NCBI GenBank assembly: GCA_946479805.1
Contig: CAMLHP010000025.1
Location: 1-20,506, forward strand
Length of the DNA stretch: 20,506 bases
Source: an uncultured Gemmatimonadota bacterium
Lineage (GTDB): Bacteria > Gemmatimonadota > Gemmatimonadetes > Gemmatimonadales > GWC2-71-9
Direction: 5' to 3'
The notes beneath the pieces were generated by a model. That model was not told the DNA's origin. It saw only the letters and a program-made list of their open reading frames with translations, and ran no database searches. Shown here one piece after another: positions 5,032 through 12,134 of the stretch (position 1 is the stretch's first letter; the number at the start of each line of letters is the position of its first letter). The position numbers and the translations under genes are program-made.

Positions 5032-6761
5032 CCACCGCCGCGCTGGTCGACCGCCGGTCAGCTGCCCACGCACTGGAGCAGATCGCCGAGCTGCTCGAGC
5101 TCAAGGGCGAGTCGGGCTTTCGTTCCCGTTCGTTCCGCACTGCGGCGCGAGCCGTCCGGTCACTGTCAGTGGACCTTACCGTCGCCCTCGCGGAGGATTC
5201 GCTTCGCGGCACACGCGGAGTCGGTCCCAGCACGCTCCAGGTGCTCACCGAGCTCGCCGAGACTGGCCGCTCCACCCTCCTCGAGGAACTGCGCGAACAG
5301 GTCCCACCCGGACTGGTGGAGATGCTGCGCATACCCGGCCTCGGCGTGGCGCGCGTCCGCCAGATTCACGACCTGCTGGACATCGACTCCGTGCCCGAGC
5401 TCGAGGCGGCCGCTGTAGATGGCCGCCTCGCCACGCTTCCGCGCTTCGGCGTGCGCACTGCCGAGAACATCCGTGACGGAATCCGCTTCCTCCGCCGCGC
5501 CAGTACGTTCCGCCTGGCGCACCACGCCGCTGACGAAGCGCGCGCTCTCGCCGGAACCCTCGCGCGCCTGCCTGATGTGACGGCAGTCTATCCAGCGGGC
5601 GACGTCCGGCGGCTCAGCGAGGTGGTGGAATCGCTGGTGCTGGTGGTGGTGAGCAGCCTGCCACCTGCCGCACTGCTGGGCCGCCTCCGGCAGCTGCCAG
5701 GGGTGGAAGAGGTCCTCGAAGCCGACGAGCGGGTAGTGACCATCCGGTTTGCGGGCGGCACCGTGGCCCGGCTGATGGCCACACCGCCCGCCAACGCCGG
5801 TGCCGTGCTGGTGCATGCCACCGGCAATGACGCCCATGTTCGAAAGCTGGAGGCCCGCGCGGCTTCGATGGGAATGAGCCTGACCGGCGCCGCCCTGTGG
5901 CGCCGCAGCACCTTCGTGCCCACACCTGACGAGGCAACGCTCTACTCCGCGCTGGACCTCCCCTGGATTCCCCCCGAGTGGCGTGAGGGCACCGACGAGC
6001 TGGAGGCCGCGGCGGAAGGCGTACCACAATTGCTGGAGCGGAGCCATCTGCGAGGACTGCTGCACTGCCACACCCAGTACTCCGACGGCAGTGGAACCGT
6101 GCGCGAGCTGGCGGAGGCGTGCAAGGCACTGGGTTACGATTACGTCGGGATCACCGACCACAGCGGTGCCGCGGCCTACGCCGGCGGGCTCACCGCCGAC
6201 GCCCTGCTGCGCCAGGCCGACGAGATCGACGCGCTCAATGAATCCGATCCTGGTATCCGCGTACTCAAGGGCGTCGAGGCAGACATCCTCCAGGACGGCT
6301 CACTTGAGTACACCCCAGCCGTTCTCGGCCGCCTGGATTTCGTGATTGCGTCGGTGCACAGCCGCTTCAACCTCGACCGGGACGCCATGACATCGCGGAT
6401 CGTTGCGGCCATGCAGAATCCGCATGTGACCATCATCGGCCATCCCACAGGTCGGCTGCTGCTCCAGCGCGAGCCTTACGACCTCGACCTCGACGCCGTG
6501 CTTTCCACGGCCGCCGATCTCGGCGTCGCGCTGGAGATCAATGCCGATCCTCACCGGCTCGACCTCGGTTGGCGCCACCTGGCCCGGGCCCGCGACCTGG
6601 GCGTCAGCGTCTCGATCGGAGCCGACGCGCACAGCGTTGCCGGCCTGGAGAACGTCACCTGGGGAATCGGCATGGCAAGGAAGGCCCGCATCGCGCCGTC
6701 CCGGGTTCTCAACACGCTCAGTGCGTCGGGCTTCCTCGATTTTGCCATGCGGCGACGCTGA
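5028..6761 (+). CDS. PolX-like protein: HhH, degenerate polymerase fold, PHP phosphoesterase
   Basis: A 577-residue protein with the layout of bacterial family X polymerases. Residues 1-155 carry the 8-kDa-type and helix-hairpin-helix segments (RGVGPSTL at 62-69, IPGLGVARV at 102-110). Residues about 160-320 correspond to the palm and thumb, but the catalytic motif expected as GSxRR...DxD reads [16 protein letters not shown] (191-206), with Ser and Val where the two aspartates belong, and the third aspartate site (expected in QVDLR) reads TVARL (245-249). The PHP domain (341-577) is intact: H346/H348, D377/H378, E417, H444, H472, D533/H535. The likely activity is a metal-dependent 3'-5' exonuclease or phosphoesterase acting at gaps and damaged ends, without DNA synthesis. 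It overlaps endonuclease III (TGATG), fitting base excision repair. Confidence 0.88.
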
Positions 6762-7438
6762 TGGCCACCAGGCGCATTTCGAGCAAGCGAGCCGCCGCCG
6801 CGGAGGAAACCTTCTCGAGGCTCTCGTCGGAGTACCCCGACGCCCATTGCGAGCTCGATCACCACGACCCCTTCGAGCTGCTCGCGGCCACGATTCTCTC
6901 GGCCCAGTGCACCGACAAGCGGGTCAATCTGGTCACGCCGGTGCTTTTCAAGCGGTATCCCGATGCGGCCGCGCTGGCCGCCGCCGTCCCGACAGAGGTC
7001 GAAGACATCATCCGGCCCACCGGATTCTTCCGTAACAAGACGAAGAGCCTCATCGGGATGGCACAGGCGCTCGTCGCCGACCATGGCGGTGAGGTTCCCG
7101 CCTCGATGGATCAACTGCGGGTGCTTCCCGGCGTCGGCCGGAAGACCGCCAATGTGGTGCTCGGCAACGCGTTCGGCATGGATGAGGGCGTGGTGGTCGA
7201 CACCCACGTGGCGCGGGTCTCTAACCGGCTGGGCCTGACCCGGCAGACCGACCCCATCAAGATCGAGCGCGACCTCATGACCCTCTTTCCACGCCAGCAA
7301 TGGACGCTCCTCTCCCACCTGCTCATCTTTCACGGACGGCGGGTGTGCGTGGCTCGGCGGCCTCGCTGCGCCGAGTGCGTGCTGGCGTCGTTCTGTCCCA
7401 CGGCACCCAAAGAGCTCAAGAAGGCAGTCCACCGATGA
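6761..7438 (+). CDS. nth: Endonuclease III
   Basis: A 225-residue DNA glycosylase/AP lyase that removes oxidised pyrimidines in base excision repair. The helix-hairpin-helix [12 protein letters not shown] holds the catalytic Lys128, and Asp147 lies in [16 protein letters not shown]. The C-terminal iron-sulfur loop has C196, C203, C206 and C212 with the canonical C-x6-C-x2-C-x5-C spacing. Length is normal for the family. The ATG at 6761 shares bases with the stop of the PolX-like gene (TGATG); the longer upstream frame only overlaps that gene. The 3' end lies in a 12-base repeat that also contains the start of the next gene, so two in-frame stop codons occur 12 bases apart (7436-7438 and 7448-7450). 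Confidence 0.97.
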
Positions 7439-7460
7439 ATCCACCGATGAGTCCACCGAT
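7427..7460. repeat. 12-bp tandem repeat across a stop/start overlap
   Basis: Units gtccaccgatga (7427-7438), atccaccgatga (7439-7450) and the partial gtccaccgat (7451-7460). Each full unit contains ATGA, so the nth stop and the start of the next gene are both duplicated in register: nth has a second stop at 7448-7450 and the lipoprotein gene has ATG codons at 7435 and 7447. Confidence 0.9.
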
Positions 7461-8349
7461 CACGCAGATGTTTTGCAGGATGACGCTGATGGGCGTGGCG
7501 CTGGTCCTTGCTTCGTGCTCACCCGCACAGGACGATGGCGCTGTTGCGGGTGACAGCACGGCCTCCGCCACGCAGGCGGTGGCTGTCATTGCTCCAGGCG
7601 CCGAAGATGCAGCCGCTCGCCTCGCTGCGTCTACCCGCCACGGCGAATGGGCGGTCATACCAGCCGGATCCGGCGATTCGGTTCGCGCCTGGGTGGTGTA
7701 TCCCGAGCGGCCCGACTCGGCGCCAGTGGTCGTCGTGATCCACGAAATCTTCGGCCTGACCACCTGGGTGCGCGCGGTGGCGGACCAGCTCGCTGCCGAG
7801 GGTTACATAGCCATCGCGCCCGACCTCCTCACCGGCCATGGGATGCCCATGGCGGCGGACAGCTTCATGGTCGTGGAGGGCGGCGTCGACTCCGCTATCG
7901 CCATGATCAGCCGGCTGGACCAGGACGAGGTGATGCGCCGGATCGGCGCTGCCGGCGAGTGGGGCGTCGCGCTGCCGGCGGCGGCCGACAAGTGGGGCGT
8001 GGTCGGATTCTGCTGGGGCGGTACCACCGTGCTTGCGGCTGCGGCGATGATTCCCGGGCTCGATGCCTCGGTCGCGTATTACGGGGGCATCCAGCAGGAC
8101 CAGGCCGACATGGCGCGCACCACGGTTCCGACACTGGCGCTCTACGCCGGGGATGACGCCCGGGTCAATGCCACCAGGGGATATGTGGAGGAGAGCTTCC
8201 GCGCAGCTGGCGTGGATTTCGAAGCGGAGGCCTATGACGGGGCCGGGCACGGCTTCCTGCGGCAGCAGACCGGCCGCGAAGGCGCCAATGCCGCCGCCGC
8301 CGCGAAAGCATGGCCCCGGATGCTGGGGTGGTTTGAGCGGTATCTCTAG
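7435..8349 (+). CDS. Dienelactone hydrolase-like lipoprotein
   Basis: Read from ATG 7435 (ATGA overlap with nth, AAGGCAG upstream) the protein has 304 residues. The N-terminus carries a lipoprotein signal ending in Leu-Ala-Ser-Cys28, so it is probably anchored in the envelope and faces the periplasm; the start could also be Met5 (7447) or Met12 (7468), which leave the lipobox intact. The catalytic domain has the dienelactone hydrolase marks: E104 in IHEIFGL, nucleophile Cys193 in GFCWGG, Asp240/241 in YAGDDARVN and His272 in GAGHGF. Classical members open lactone rings in aromatic degradation in the cytoplasm; exported relatives are common and have unknown substrates. It ends the seven-gene chain and converges on the LiaF-like gene 27 bases away. 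Confidence 0.9.
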
Positions 8350-8376
8350 GGGCGGCCCGCAGGCCTCTGTCGGCCC

Positions 8377-9060
8377 TTAATCCAGCCCCTCCCGCTTACG
8401 GTTGAAGAACCCCTTGATCCCGGTGAAGTGATCAGGGGGAAAAGCCTCGGTGGACAGCCGCTGCCGCACGTCCACGCTGCCGAAGCGCACTGATCCCTCC
8501 AGGTGCACCACCAGCCCGTTCGGCTCGGCGCCGTGGCCGCCCTTCATGTTGACCTTGCCGCCGCCGATGAAGTCGTCGATCTCGTTCTCGATCCGGGTAC
8601 CGACGGGCACAACCAGCTTGAGCTCGCCCAGGGTCACATCCACGTTGATGAGCAACGTGTCCCATGCGAACAGCGCGTCACGAAGGTCGATTACCAGCTC
8701 GCCGAAGATGACCTTGGTCTCGATCTCGTATGGCACGACCCACTGCCCGCGCCGCTTGCTGGAGGCGAAGATCGCGGTCATGCGCAGTCGCTGCGGCACA
8801 TCCGGGGCAGGACCGTATGACTCGAGCGACACATCGCGAGAAGAACTCACAGCGTGCGTATCCCTGGCTCCCGCTTCCCACTCACCACTCGGAGCTTTGA
8901 GGTCGGCCACAATCTGGCCAATCGCAGCCGGCGTCGGCGCCTCGCGCACCAGCGCCAGCCGCTGCTCGAACAGCTCCACCGACATGGCTCCCTGCGCCTG
9001 CGCCAGGCATAGCTGGTGAATCGCTTCGCGCCTGTGCTCCTCGAGTTCGTGTCCTGACAT
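8377..9060 (-). CDS. DUF1707 / LiaF-like C-terminal domain protein
   Basis: A 227-residue protein read from ATG 9060. Residues about 8-55 match the DUF1707/SHOCT-like pattern (short helices with LFEQRLALVREAPTPAAIGQIVADL), and residues about 90-215 form the beta-rich domain found at the C-terminus of LiaF and 'cell wall-active antibiotics response' proteins (FGELVIDLRDA, TLGELKLVVPVGTRIE, alternating hydrophobic strands with G turns). Unlike LiaF it has no membrane segment, so it appears soluble. LiaF proteins restrain envelope-stress signalling; whether this one does is unknown. The frame is open far upstream, but a -10-like element lies seven bases before ATG 9060 and the DUF255 gene diverges from there, which fixes the start. 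No Shine-Dalgarno is present. Confidence 0.82.
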   Translation of the reverse strand: MSGHELEEHRREAIHQLCLAQAQGAMSVELFEQRLALVREAPTPAAIGQIVADLKAPSGEWEAGARDTHAVSSSRDVSLESYGPAPDVPQRLRMTAIFASSKRRGQWVVPYEIETKVIFGELVIDLRDALFAWDTLLINVDVTLGELKLVVPVGTRIENEIDDFIGGGKVNMKGGHGAEPNGLVVHLEGSVRFGSVDVRQRLSTEAFPPDHFTGIKGFFNRKREGLD

Positions 9061-9065
9061 GGCCG

Positions 9066-9078
9066 GGAATATAATTCC
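9066..9078. promoter_or_regulatory. Symmetric bidirectional -10 element, leaderless on both sides
   Basis: The whole gap between the divergent genes is 21 bases (9061-9081). GGAATATAATTCC has inverted 5-base arms around ATA. On the plus strand it gives a perfect TATAAT (9070-9075) six bases before ATG 9082; on the minus strand it gives TATATT (9073-9068) seven bases before ATG 9060. With usual -10 to start spacing, both transcripts would begin at or within a base or so of the A of the ATG. No convincing -35 is visible on either side. Confidence 0.75.
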
Positions 9079-9081
9079 TGC

Positions 9082-11166
9082 ATGAACCGCCTGACCGAGG
9101 CCCGCTCGCCCTACCTCCGAAGCGCGGCGCACCAGCCGATCCACTGGCACACCTGGTCGCCCGAAGCCTTCGCCGACGCGGGCGCTGCTGACCGCCCGAT
9201 CCTGCTCGACATCGGCGCTATATGGTGCCACTGGTGCCACGTGATGGACAGCGAGACGTACGAAGATCCGGGAATCGCCGAGCTGCTGAACAGCCGGTTC
9301 ACCTGCATCAAGGTGGATCGCGATGAGCGCCCGGACGTGGACGTCCGCTACCAGCGCGCGGTGCAGGCGCTCACCGGCCAGGGTGGCTGGCCCCTCACCG
9401 TCTTCATGGACCCGCAGGGCGAGCCGTTCTTCGGGGGCACCTACTTTCCACCCGACGACCGCTTCGGGCGTCCCGGCTTCCGCACCGTGCTCAAGAGCGT
9501 GCTCGGTGCGTGGCGCGATCGGCGTTCCCAGATAGCGGCCCAGGCCGCTGCGGTGCGGCACGCAGTTTCCGAGGCAGCCCGGGTCACGAGCGGGGACTTC
9601 ACTCCCGCCGTCTTTGACGAGGTCGAGCAGCGGCTGCTGGGCGTGTTCGATCAGGCCCATGGCGGCTTCGGCTCCGAGCCCAAGTTTCCCCATCCCGCCG
9701 CGTTGCTGCTCCTCCTCGATCGCTGGCAGTCCAGTGGCTCATCGTCGGCCCGGCAGATGACGATTCGCACCCTCACCGGCATGGCGCTGGGCGGCATCCA
9801 CGATCAGGTGGGTGGCGGCTTTCATCGTTACAGCGTGGACGCCGAGTGGGTCGTGCCTCACTTCGAAAAGATGTCGTACGACAACTCCGAGCTGCTGCGT
9901 GCGTATGTCGAGGGCTGGGCCGCGTTCGGCGACCCTCTCCACCGCACCACTGCGGAGCGCATCGTCGGCTGGGTGCGCGAGGTGCTGGCCGACGCTGACG
10001 GCGGGTATGCCGCCAGCCAGGATGCCGACGTGGGACTCGATGACGACGGCGACTACTTCACCTGGACCCGCGCGGAGGCGGCAAGTGCGATTGCGCCGGA
10101 CGATTTCGACGCCGCTGCTGCGGTGTGGGACATCGGCACCGCCGGCGAGATGCACCACGCACCCGACCGCAACGTCCTGTTCGTGGGCGAGCCGGTGGAG
10201 CACTACGCCGCGCGGAGCGGGCTGCCGGAAGCGGAGGTCGCCGCATCACTCGTGCGCGCCCGCGACGCTCTCCGTGCGGCGCGCGCCACTCGGCCGCAGC
10301 CATTCGTGGATTCCACCCGCTACACCGGCTGGAACGCGATGATGGCCTCGGCGGTGCTTCGCGCCGGCATCGTCCATGGGGATCAGTGGGCTGAAGCTCA
10401 TTCGCTGATCACCCTCTCGCGCATAAGGCGAGAGTCGCCTGAGCCCGACCGTGTGCCCCACGACCCCTCGGGTGCCGTGCAGGGTCTGCTCGAGGACCAG
10501 CTCCAGTGCGCTACTGCCGCGCTCGATGCGTTTGAAGTGTCCCAGGACGCCGCCTGGCTCGAGTGGGCACTGGCGCTGGCTGACAGGACCTGGCGCGACC
10601 ATGCGGCCTCCGATGGTGTGCTGGAAGACCTCGCGCGTGGCGCTGCCGGTGAAGGCCTGCTGAGCGCGCCCATCCGCCCCGTGGATGACGCACCGACTCC
10701 GTCTCCCAATGGCGTTGCGGCACTGCTGGCCCTGCGGCTTGCCGCACATACCGGCGATGCTGCGTGGCATCGGCGAGCCGAGCAGATCATCTCGGTATTC
10801 GCTCCCGAGTCGGCGGCGACACCGCTTCATCGCGCGACCCTGCTCCGCGCCGCAGCGTGGCTGCTGGACGACGCCACCCATCTCGTGGTGGTTGGGCCGC
10901 TGGACGATCCTGACGCAGCCGCCATGCACCGCGCCGCCTTGGCGTCGTCGGTGCCGCGCAGGGCCATTCGCTGGCTCTCGCCCGACGCACCGCGCACCGG
11001 CCTCCCCGAAGCGCTGGCGCCGCTGCTGGACGCTGCTCCCCCCACCAGGACCACTGGGTGGTGCTGCACGGGCACCAGCTGCCGGGCGCCCATCACCATG
11101 CTGGATGAGTGGGGGGACCTGCTGGCAGAACTCTCGTCACCTGGAGCACTGCATGGGCACTCGTGA
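9082..11166 (+). CDS. DUF255 thioredoxin-fold protein, YyaL/spermatogenesis-associated 20 family
   Basis: A 694-residue protein, normal length for the family. The N-terminal 160 residues form a thioredoxin-like domain with the family's W48-C-H-W-C52 motif, followed by GGWPLTVF and FFGGTYFPP. The remainder is an (alpha/alpha)6 barrel related to N-acylglucosamine 2-epimerases, with GGIHDQVGGGFHRYSVD and WVVPHFEKMSYDN. The C-terminus has the conserved Cys-rich strand, here TGWCCTGTSCRAPI. The biochemical role is not established; proposals include thiol redox and sugar handling. There is no signal peptide. The start has no Shine-Dalgarno and sits six bases after a TATAAT, consistent with leaderless translation. 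Its 3' end overlaps the YdeI-like gene by 14 bases. Confidence 0.93.
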   Translation: MNRLTEARSPYLRSAAHQPIHWHTWSPEAFADAGAADRPILLDIGAIWCHWCHVMDSETYEDPGIAELLNSRFTCIKVDRDERPDVDVRYQRAVQALTGQGGWPLTVFMDPQGEPFFGGTYFPPDDRFGRPGFRTVLKSVLGAWRDRRSQIAAQAAAVRHAVSEAARVTSGDFTPAVFDEVEQRLLGVFDQAHGGFGSEPKFPHPAALLLLLDRWQSSGSSSARQMTIRTLTGMALGGIHDQVGGGFHRYSVDAEWVVPHFEKMSYDNSELLRAYVEGWAAFGDPLHRTTAERIVGWVREVLADADGGYAASQDADVGLDDDGDYFTWTRAEAASAIAPDDFDAAAAVWDIGTAGEMHHAPDRNVLFVGEPVEHYAARSGLPEAEVAASLVRARDALRAARATRPQPFVDSTRYTGWNAMMASAVLRAGIVHGDQWAEAHSLITLSRIRRESPEPDRVPHDPSGAVQGLLEDQLQCATAALDAFEVSQDAAWLEWALALADRTWRDHAASDGVLEDLARGAAGEGLLSAPIRPVDDAPTPSPNGVAALLALRLAAHTGDAAWHRRAEQIISVFAPESAATPLHRATLLRAAAWLLDDATHLVVVGPLDDPDAAAMHRAALASSVPRRAIRWLSPDAPRTGLPEALAPLLDAAPPTRTTGWCCTGTSCRAPITMLDEWGDLLAELSSPGALHGHS

Positions 11167-11746
11167 TCCGCGGGTGGACGCGTACATCGCCCGGTCGGCG
11201 CCCTTCGCCCGGCCGATCCTCGAGCATATCCGGTCAGTCATGCACGAGGCCTGCCCCGAGGTGGAGGAGACCATGAAGTGGAGCATGCCCCACTTCATGT
11301 ATCACGGCATGTTGGGCGGGATGTCGGCATTCAAGGCGCACTGTGCGTTCGGCTTCTGGAAGGGCAAGCTGATCGTGCCCGTGAAGGAGAAGGAGGCGAT
11401 GGGCCAGTTCGGACGCATCACCGCCATCGCAGACCTGCCTCCCCGGCGCACGTTCGTCACATATGTGAAACGGGCCATGAAGCTCAACGAGGAAGGCGTG
11501 AAGACGCCACGGGCAGCAGCGCCAAGGGCGAAAAAGCCGCTGGCCGTGCCGCCAGACCTGGCCCAGGCCCTCAGCCTGAACAGGAAGGCCAAGGTGGCGT
11601 TCGAGCGATTCGCGCCCGGCCAGCGGCGGGAGTACATCGAGTGGATCACCGAAGCGAAGCGGGACGAGACCCGTGCCCGGCGCATCGCCCAGGCGGTGGA
11701 GTGGACCGCCGAGGGCAAGACCCGAAACTGGAAGTACCAGAAGTGA
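11153..11746 (+). CDS. YdeI/OmpD-associated family protein with DUF1801 domain
   Basis: A 197-residue soluble protein. The N-terminal half is a DUF1801 domain (DPRVDAYIARSAPFARPILEHIR, EETMKWSMPHFMYHG, CAFGFWKGKLIVPV). The C-terminal 65 residues are the OmdA/YdeI type (PPDLAQAL, RKAKVAFERFAPGQRREYIEWI, AKRDETRARRIAQAV). The linker is rich in Ala, Pro and Lys. The start is ATG 11153, with GGAG seven bases upstream, inside the end of the preceding gene; the frame is open further upstream only as a shadow. Function is poorly known; the family has been linked to stress and outer-membrane phenotypes. Confidence 0.88.
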   Translation: MGTRDPRVDAYIARSAPFARPILEHIRSVMHEACPEVEETMKWSMPHFMYHGMLGGMSAFKAHCAFGFWKGKLIVPVKEKEAMGQFGRITAIADLPPRRTFVTYVKRAMKLNEEGVKTPRAAAPRAKKPLAVPPDLAQALSLNRKAKVAFERFAPGQRREYIEWITEAKRDETRARRIAQAVEWTAEGKTRNWKYQK

Positions 11747-11795
11747 CGTGCCGCCACTATCCACGCACCACTTCCCACTCGGCACGGGTTGCGGG

Positions 11796-11801
11796 TACCA
11801 T
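11796..11801 (+). promoter_or_regulatory. Candidate -10 for small-gene cluster
   Basis: TACCAT with TTCCCA 18 bases upstream (11772-11777) lies in the 67-base gap before the small membrane protein and would start transcription just ahead of its Shine-Dalgarno. Weak consensus match. Confidence 0.3.
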
Positions 11802-11813
11802 ACGAGGATCCAG

Positions 11814-12134
11814 GTGAGCCCCGGGCTTGGACGCATCCGCCGGAGCCTGGTCCTGCTGCTGCTGGGACTGGTGCCGATGTTCCTCTGGCTGATGCTGGTG
11901 AACCCGGCCGCCGTTGCTGCGTCGGGCCTCAAGTCCGGAACCGGGGCAGTGCTGGCCGGGCTCACGGCTGGAGTGCTGGTGCTTTCGATTGTTGCCTACC
12001 GGGAGCTGACCGCGGTCCGGCTGGATGCCGGGGCGCCGGAGCGCCCCATGGCAGCCATCATCGCATTGTTCGCCGTGGCTGGTGCAGTGTTCTCGCTGGT
12101 CGCATTGTTGTACGGAGCAAGCCGGCTGATGTAG
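11814..12134 (+). CDS. Small three-helix membrane protein
   Basis: A 106-residue protein read from GTG 11814, supported by GAGGA at 11804-11808; the longer upstream frame overlaps the preceding gene and lacks an RBS. Three hydrophobic segments are visible: residues about 9-28, 42-62 and 77-100. The loops are short, and RxxR precedes the first helix, favouring a cytoplasmic N-terminus. I do not recognise the family. Confidence 0.7.
   Translation: MSPGLGRIRRSLVLLLLGLVPMFLWLMLVNPAAVAASGLKSGTGAVLAGLTAGVLVLSIVAYRELTAVRLDAGAPERPMAAIIALFAVAGAVFSLVALLYGASRLM

Follow-up and report, generated by a model that had tools for sequence, protein, structure and literature searches.

The 21-nt intergenic gap between two divergent genes at positions 9061..9081 is probably a minimal bidirectional promoter, in which two -10 hexamers on opposite strands overlap and from which both messages presumably start at their own ATGs. 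The gap lies within a 20.5-kb stretch of DNA (the window). At the level of sequence, the evidence consists of the geometry of the gap, the conservation of the hexamers in the nearest relative, a peak of TANNNT before gene starts across the phylum, and the recurrence of the core with its spacing at other gene pairs.

Geometry of the gap and its flanking genes

The plus-strand gene (9082..11166) encodes a 694-aa protein of the Thioredox_DsbH/DUF255 family (PF03190; Pfam, E 1.8e-67). Its best relatives come from Gemmatimonadales and other Gemmatimonadota MAGs, with a top identity of 78%. The minus-strand gene (8377..9060) encodes a 227-aa protein with weak matches to DUF1707 and LiaF-like_C. We use the name LiaF-like tentatively, because both matches score below the curated Pfam cut-offs (25.8 versus 29 and 23.5 versus 27.6 bits). 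Residue 2 of the plus protein is the first in the DUF255 match (profile position 2), and residue 9 of the minus protein the first in the DUF1707-like match (profile position 7); therefore, both proteins fit the ATGs at 9082 and 9060. Although the minus reading frame is open as far upstream as 9693, the 82%-identical homologue in L081 aligns from residue 1.

Inside the gap, a 13-bp near-palindrome, GGAATATAATTCC (9066..9078), carries the arms GGAAT and ATTCC around the 3-base centre ATA. It encloses the shared core, here in the form ANTATANT (9068..9075), in which two -10 hexamers overlap by four bases. TATAAT (9070..9075, plus strand) is separated by 6 nt (9076-9081) from the DUF255 ATG at 9082, and TATATT (9068..9073, minus strand) by 7 nt (9067-9061) from the LiaF-like ATG at 9060. 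By this geometry, the -7 position of the plus hexamer would set +1 at the A of the ATG at 9082. No Shine-Dalgarno sequence at a working distance was found on either strand in the sequence flanking the gap; the nearest similar motifs are GGGA, some 13-16 nt upstream of the plus ATG, and AGGA, some 15-18 nt upstream of the minus one, both too far away for the usual spacing. The hexamers with their distances, the inverted 5-base arms and the lack of a Shine-Dalgarno sequence on both genes, as described in an earlier note on this DNA, were all confirmed from the sequence. That note had also proposed that both messages would be leaderless. The placement of each -10 suits its ATG, and both genes have the layout of -10-adjacent leaderless genes (TANNNT 6 or 7 nt from the ATG, no well-placed Shine-Dalgarno sequence); leaderless messages on both sides are thus a prediction from sequence.

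The window contains 39 inverted repeats that have 5-bp arms around a 3-nt loop, so a palindrome of this kind is common and by itself means little. TATAAT and ANTATANT, by comparison, each occur once in the window; the latter has a density of 5.7 per Mb in the window and the G001 set together, and its sole copy in the window is that of the intergenic gap, where it stands in register with both ATGs. It is the location and register of the core that are notable, not the palindrome as such.

The same gene pair in relatives

Homologues of the LiaF-like protein (P0001) are present in 71 of the 151 genomes of the order and in 15 of the 102 genomes of the family. Among 30 such loci that were cut out, three have a DUF255 gene within the flank: L081 (G001), L082 (G004) and L084 (G090). 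The ATG-to-ATG gap of this pair is 21 nt in the window, 22 nt in L081, 29 nt in L082 and 64 nt in L084. In the nearest relative (L001/L081, G001), the hexamers overlap as in the window, with TATATT and TATACT each at 7 nt; 11 of the 13 palindrome bases match, and the two changes break an outer and an inner base pair of the arms. L082 has two separate, back-to-back -10s (TATATT at 7 nt, TAGTTT at 5 nt), and L084 has TATCTT at 8 nt on its minus side. At the window's own gene pair, the shared core was therefore found in one other genome, G001.

The earlier note expected the 13-base element to be conserved in close relatives. The strict element is not fully kept, whereas its functional positions are, and the palindrome failed as a conserved unit: in L081 its arms are broken while the hexamers and spacings persist. 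Because the nearest relative keeps the hexamers and breaks the palindrome, the conserved feature, judged from these sequences, is the two overlapping -10s.

Each of the two genes also tends to have a -10 of its own. TANNNT lies 5-7 nt before the ATG at 9 of 12 Gemmatimonadota DUF255 loci (exceptions L007, L011 and L030), and at 7 of 10 DUF255 loci that have no divergent pair. Seven of the 10 LiaF-like homologues looked at have TANNNT 6-9 nt before the ATG (five at 6-7 nt, L084 at 8 and L088 at 9; exceptions L086, L089 and L090), most of them with no DUF255 gene next door. Since either gene carries a -10 in the partner's absence, the shared core looks like two leaderless promoters that have come to overlap. 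With gaps of 64, 29, 22 and 21 nt, the overlap probably arose as two separate promoters of this kind drew together, an order of events that we infer.

TANNNT before gene starts and recurrence of the core

Gene starts were called with a simple codon model. In each of the five Gemmatimonadota sets, TANNNT peaked at spacers of 5-7 nt to the called start. The counts at spacers 5/6/7 were 15/22/12 of 708 starts in the window and G001 (background about 4 per spacer), 5/9/3 of 322 in G017, 2/19/2 of 315 in G063, 4/11/2 of 317 in G038 and 2/1/5 of 137 in a mixed Gemmatimonadota set. This peak supports the presence of leaderless genes in Gemmatimonadota, and the peak and the recurring shared-core pairs described below lend support, as far as sequence can, to the earlier guess of a general promoter grammar in this lineage. 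Acidobacterial loci gave 8/41/26 of 727 starts, with a tail to 9 nt. The base at -8 of the selected hexamers was T in 58-77% for the window and G001, G063 and G038, and in only 34% for G017; the selected TANNNT hexamers of the acidobacterial loci (L009-L080) prefer C at this position (61%).

A consensus scan of positions 6500-12000 returned 0 promoters, and the logos had no strong -35. The window and G001 did show a weak preference for T-T-G at positions -35 to -33 (T 24-38%), and G063 and G038 one for T-T, so that a weak T-T(-G) -35 tendency in Gemmatimonadota sets is possible. In the window, the bases at -36 to -33 are TTCG for the plus gene and CGGT for the minus gene. Divergent pairs were also collected from the called genes. 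TANNNT stood on both sides in 4 of 81, 0 of 47, 2 of 50, 0 of 49 and 1 of 21 pairs in Gemmatimonadota and in 10 of 120 acidobacterial pairs; for the control motif TA..T., the first set had 3 such pairs. This route was set aside as weak, because it yields few pairs and the caller misses the window's LiaF-like gene.

Searched directly, the pattern CATN{5,7}ANTATANTN{5,7}ATG occurs at 44 sites in 41 of the 151 genomes of the order. In the same 151 genomes, the reversed pattern gave 2 sites, spacers of 9-11 nt around the ANTATANT core gave 12, and a swapped core (TNATATNA) gave 7. Acidobacteriota, taken as a second phylum, showed no excess (9 versus 7 in 50 genomes), though leaderless-type TANNNT is frequent there. 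Much of the 44-site excess consists of two families. Pair A joins cytochrome b561 (Ni_hydr_CYTB) to a protein of about 172 aa with an apparent lipoprotein signal, which has no Pfam match and a lipobox judged by eye; the smaller pair B joins PAP2 to DUF3187. Without pairs A and B, 24 sites remain, versus 12 (p = 0.065) or 7 (p = 0.003) in the controls, and three of the 24, all in G057, are identical to one another.

Thirty of the 44 sites were cut out and examined: 16 of pair A, 4 of pair B, one of the window's pair in G001, and 9 others. Coding-like frames flanked the site on both sides in 18 of the 30, in 2 of 12 out-of-register sites and in 1 of 7 core-swapped sites (18/30 versus 3/19, Fisher p 0.003, for sites that are not independent, 13 of the 18 belonging to two families). 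The 18 sites represent seven distinct pairs over the 151 genomes, the window's pair included. Besides the families named above, coding-like frames on both sides were found for a 5'-3' exonuclease with an ATP-dependent ligase (L269), an ArsR-type regulator with a protein without assigned function (L270), a ferritin-like protein with an ABC permease (L272) and a heme oxygenase-like protein with a B12-binding protein (L274). The other 12 sites failed the test. Seven are pair-A sites (L251, L254, L257, L258, L265, L256 and L266), five of them with an absent or broken partner frame or a low score; the rest are L267, L271, L278, L279 and L280. Contigs C25, C30 and C33 of G057 (L267) hold three identical in-register sites, the copy cut out has no long frames around it, and the triple site is probably a repeat. 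Similar TATA-core sites with spacers of 9-11 nt (G010:C18:106927-106959 and G076:C4:5795-5827) also fail the both-coding test.

Homologues of pair A were found at 36 places in 34 of the 102 genomes. Twenty-eight were counted as having the start region in view, two pieces in G153 being taken as one; outside this count are G068, G053, G059 and G070, with uncertain starts, as well as G104, G042 and a second place in G154. TATATT lies 6-7 nt before the lipoprotein ATG in all 28. The partner's CAT stands on the other side in 22; of these, 13 have the core AATATATT and 9 have AGTATATT. At these 22 sites, the ATG-ATG spacing is 21 nt in 21 and 20 nt in one, and the flanking bases vary. The pattern search itself had led to 16 of the 22; among the 12 homologues fetched independently of it, 6 show the arrangement. 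On the cytochrome b561 side, L266 (G117) has a 34-codon frame, and the ATG is absent in G137, G157 and G159; the lipoprotein -10 stays, which suggests loss of this neighbour.

The chief alternative is that both hexamers fell into a short gap by chance and mean nothing beyond two ordinary promoters. We consider this improbable, at roughly one chance in five. It would fit the register scans without a -8T, which stay at background (the 18-bp register with any middle bases, TANNNTA, gave 193 sites versus 290 in the reversed control, with no excess; the ANNNTANNNT register gave 297 versus 250 and was not separable from background), and it would fit the small number of independent d = +2 pairs, seven with coding-like frames on both sides. 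Against it, the overlap is kept in G001 and in 22 of the 28 pair-A homologues, and the 44 in-register sites exceed the 12 and 7 of the controls. Other overlap registers may be used too, because the stricter TAANTTA gave 26 versus 9 sites and ATANTAT 19 versus 7. A TAANTTA-form site (the 18-bp type) between opposite ATGs is the same in three genomes (G046:C10:210537-210560, G083:C271:8549-8572 and G093:C415:3930-3953), and a similar ATANTAT-type site between opposite ATGs occurs at G100:C63:106235-106259 and G066:C52:12736-12761.

Somewhat less probable still, and in our judgement unlikely, is that one hexamer only works, most likely the TATAAT of DUF255, the other gene having a leadered promoter inside its neighbour; the symmetry would then reflect an AT-rich core that is similar on both strands. 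A TATA core always somewhat resembles a -10 on the opposite strand, and starts further upstream, inside the neighbouring gene, may exist at the window's pair. Pair A speaks partly for this: among the six homologues without the partner's CAT, four have AATATATT intact, one has ACTATATT and one GGTATATT, so a core can be retained for a single gene. Five of these 6 still have A as the first core base, and the core with and without the partner showed no contrast across the 28 homologues. Because the core persists where the partner's CAT is absent, the second core half is not demonstrably kept by the partner gene. The three LiaF-like homologues of 10 without TANNNT before the presumed start point the same way. 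On the other hand, the minus hexamer keeps both its sequence and its 7-nt distance in L081 and L082, in the latter separate from the plus hexamer, and most of the other seven homologues have their TANNNT without an adjoining DUF255 gene, which was found in 3 of 30 loci. That the palindrome is the operator of a dimeric regulator and its -10 resemblance secondary is very unlikely: symmetric arms, the ArsR-family regulator in one recurring pair (L270) and the operator over overlapping -10s at csoR-cueA of Bradyrhizobium (in the excerpt of PMC5057107) favour it, but the arms are broken in L081, pair A keeps only the 8-bp core fixed or nearly so while its arms vary, and an operator would need no such fixity as the 20-21 nt between ATGs at 22 of 22 pair-A sites.

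Proposed mechanism and comparison with known systems

We therefore return to the gap as a minimal bidirectional promoter. RNA polymerase would load on the AATATAAT core, in which the opposite-strand hexamers overlap by four bases, in either orientation and one at a time. With this spacing, transcription in each direction would begin no more than one base from the A of the corresponding ATG, giving two leaderless mRNAs, and the two orientations would exclude each other. If so, this is about the smallest promoter able to serve two genes: 20-22 bases would suffice for initiating two messages, the -10, start site and start codon being tied to one another. It would offer, in Gemmatimonadota, a directly testable case, visible in alignments, of a shared open complex under selection, and promoters and start codons would become predictable from sequence alone.

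More tentatively, and at a little under even confidence, we propose a class of very compact bidirectional promoters in Gemmatimonadota that are leaderless on both sides. Such promoters would consist of an 8-bp core, typically AATATATT, with an ATG 5-7 nt away in each direction; they would lack a leader, have little or no -35 and use an overlap unlike the 18-bp E. coli form. They would couple genes by mutual exclusion, because both genes must share one open complex, and would be kept by selection at several unrelated pairs, such as cytochrome b561/lipoprotein and PAP2/DUF3187.

The best reading is that two things already known, the shared -10 mechanism and the leaderless mode, are combined here in a compact arrangement that we did not find described. 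In the open-licence literature, to which the search was directed rather than to subscription papers, we found no paper that treats shared -10 promoters with leaderless genes on both sides, or leaderless genes in Gemmatimonadota. In shared -10 bidirectional promoters (Warman et al. 2021, as cited in excerpts of PMC10268837 and PMC12825309), -10s on opposite strands share base pairs, the start sites lie 7-25 bp apart and polymerase binds one orientation at a time. The window resembles them in that its hexamers (9068-9073 on the minus and 9070-9075 on the plus strand) share four bases, and the earlier claim that symmetric -10 elements fire both ways does describe an established arrangement. Its commonest form, as excerpts of PMC10268837 give it, is different: there the start sites are 18 bp apart, with -11A and -7T pairing reciprocally and other spacings allowed, whereas the window has the ANTATANT overlap instead of TANNNTA, and its predicted starts would be 22 bp apart if both are the A of the ATG. 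The window's predicted starts also coincide with both start codons, and the consensus scan found no -35.

Leaderless genes with an adjacent -10 are known from Deinococcus-Thermus, Actinobacteria and others (excerpts of PMC12340547 and PMC3160421). They have in common with the window a TANNNT a few bases before the start codon and no Shine-Dalgarno sequence; as those excerpts describe them, each -10 serves one gene, whereas the window's core would serve two. The words 'bidirectional', 'divergent' and 'Gemmatimon' do not occur in the text of these two papers. The lysG-lysE pair of M. tuberculosis has, in an excerpted account, overlapping promoters and a separate leaderless one. In the csoR-cueA divergon of Bradyrhizobium, as far as the excerpt of PMC5057107 describes it, overlapping -10s lie between divergent genes as in the window, and one leaderless side has been mapped by 5' RACE; unlike the window, its other side has a 42-nt leader, and the regulator's box covers the promoter.
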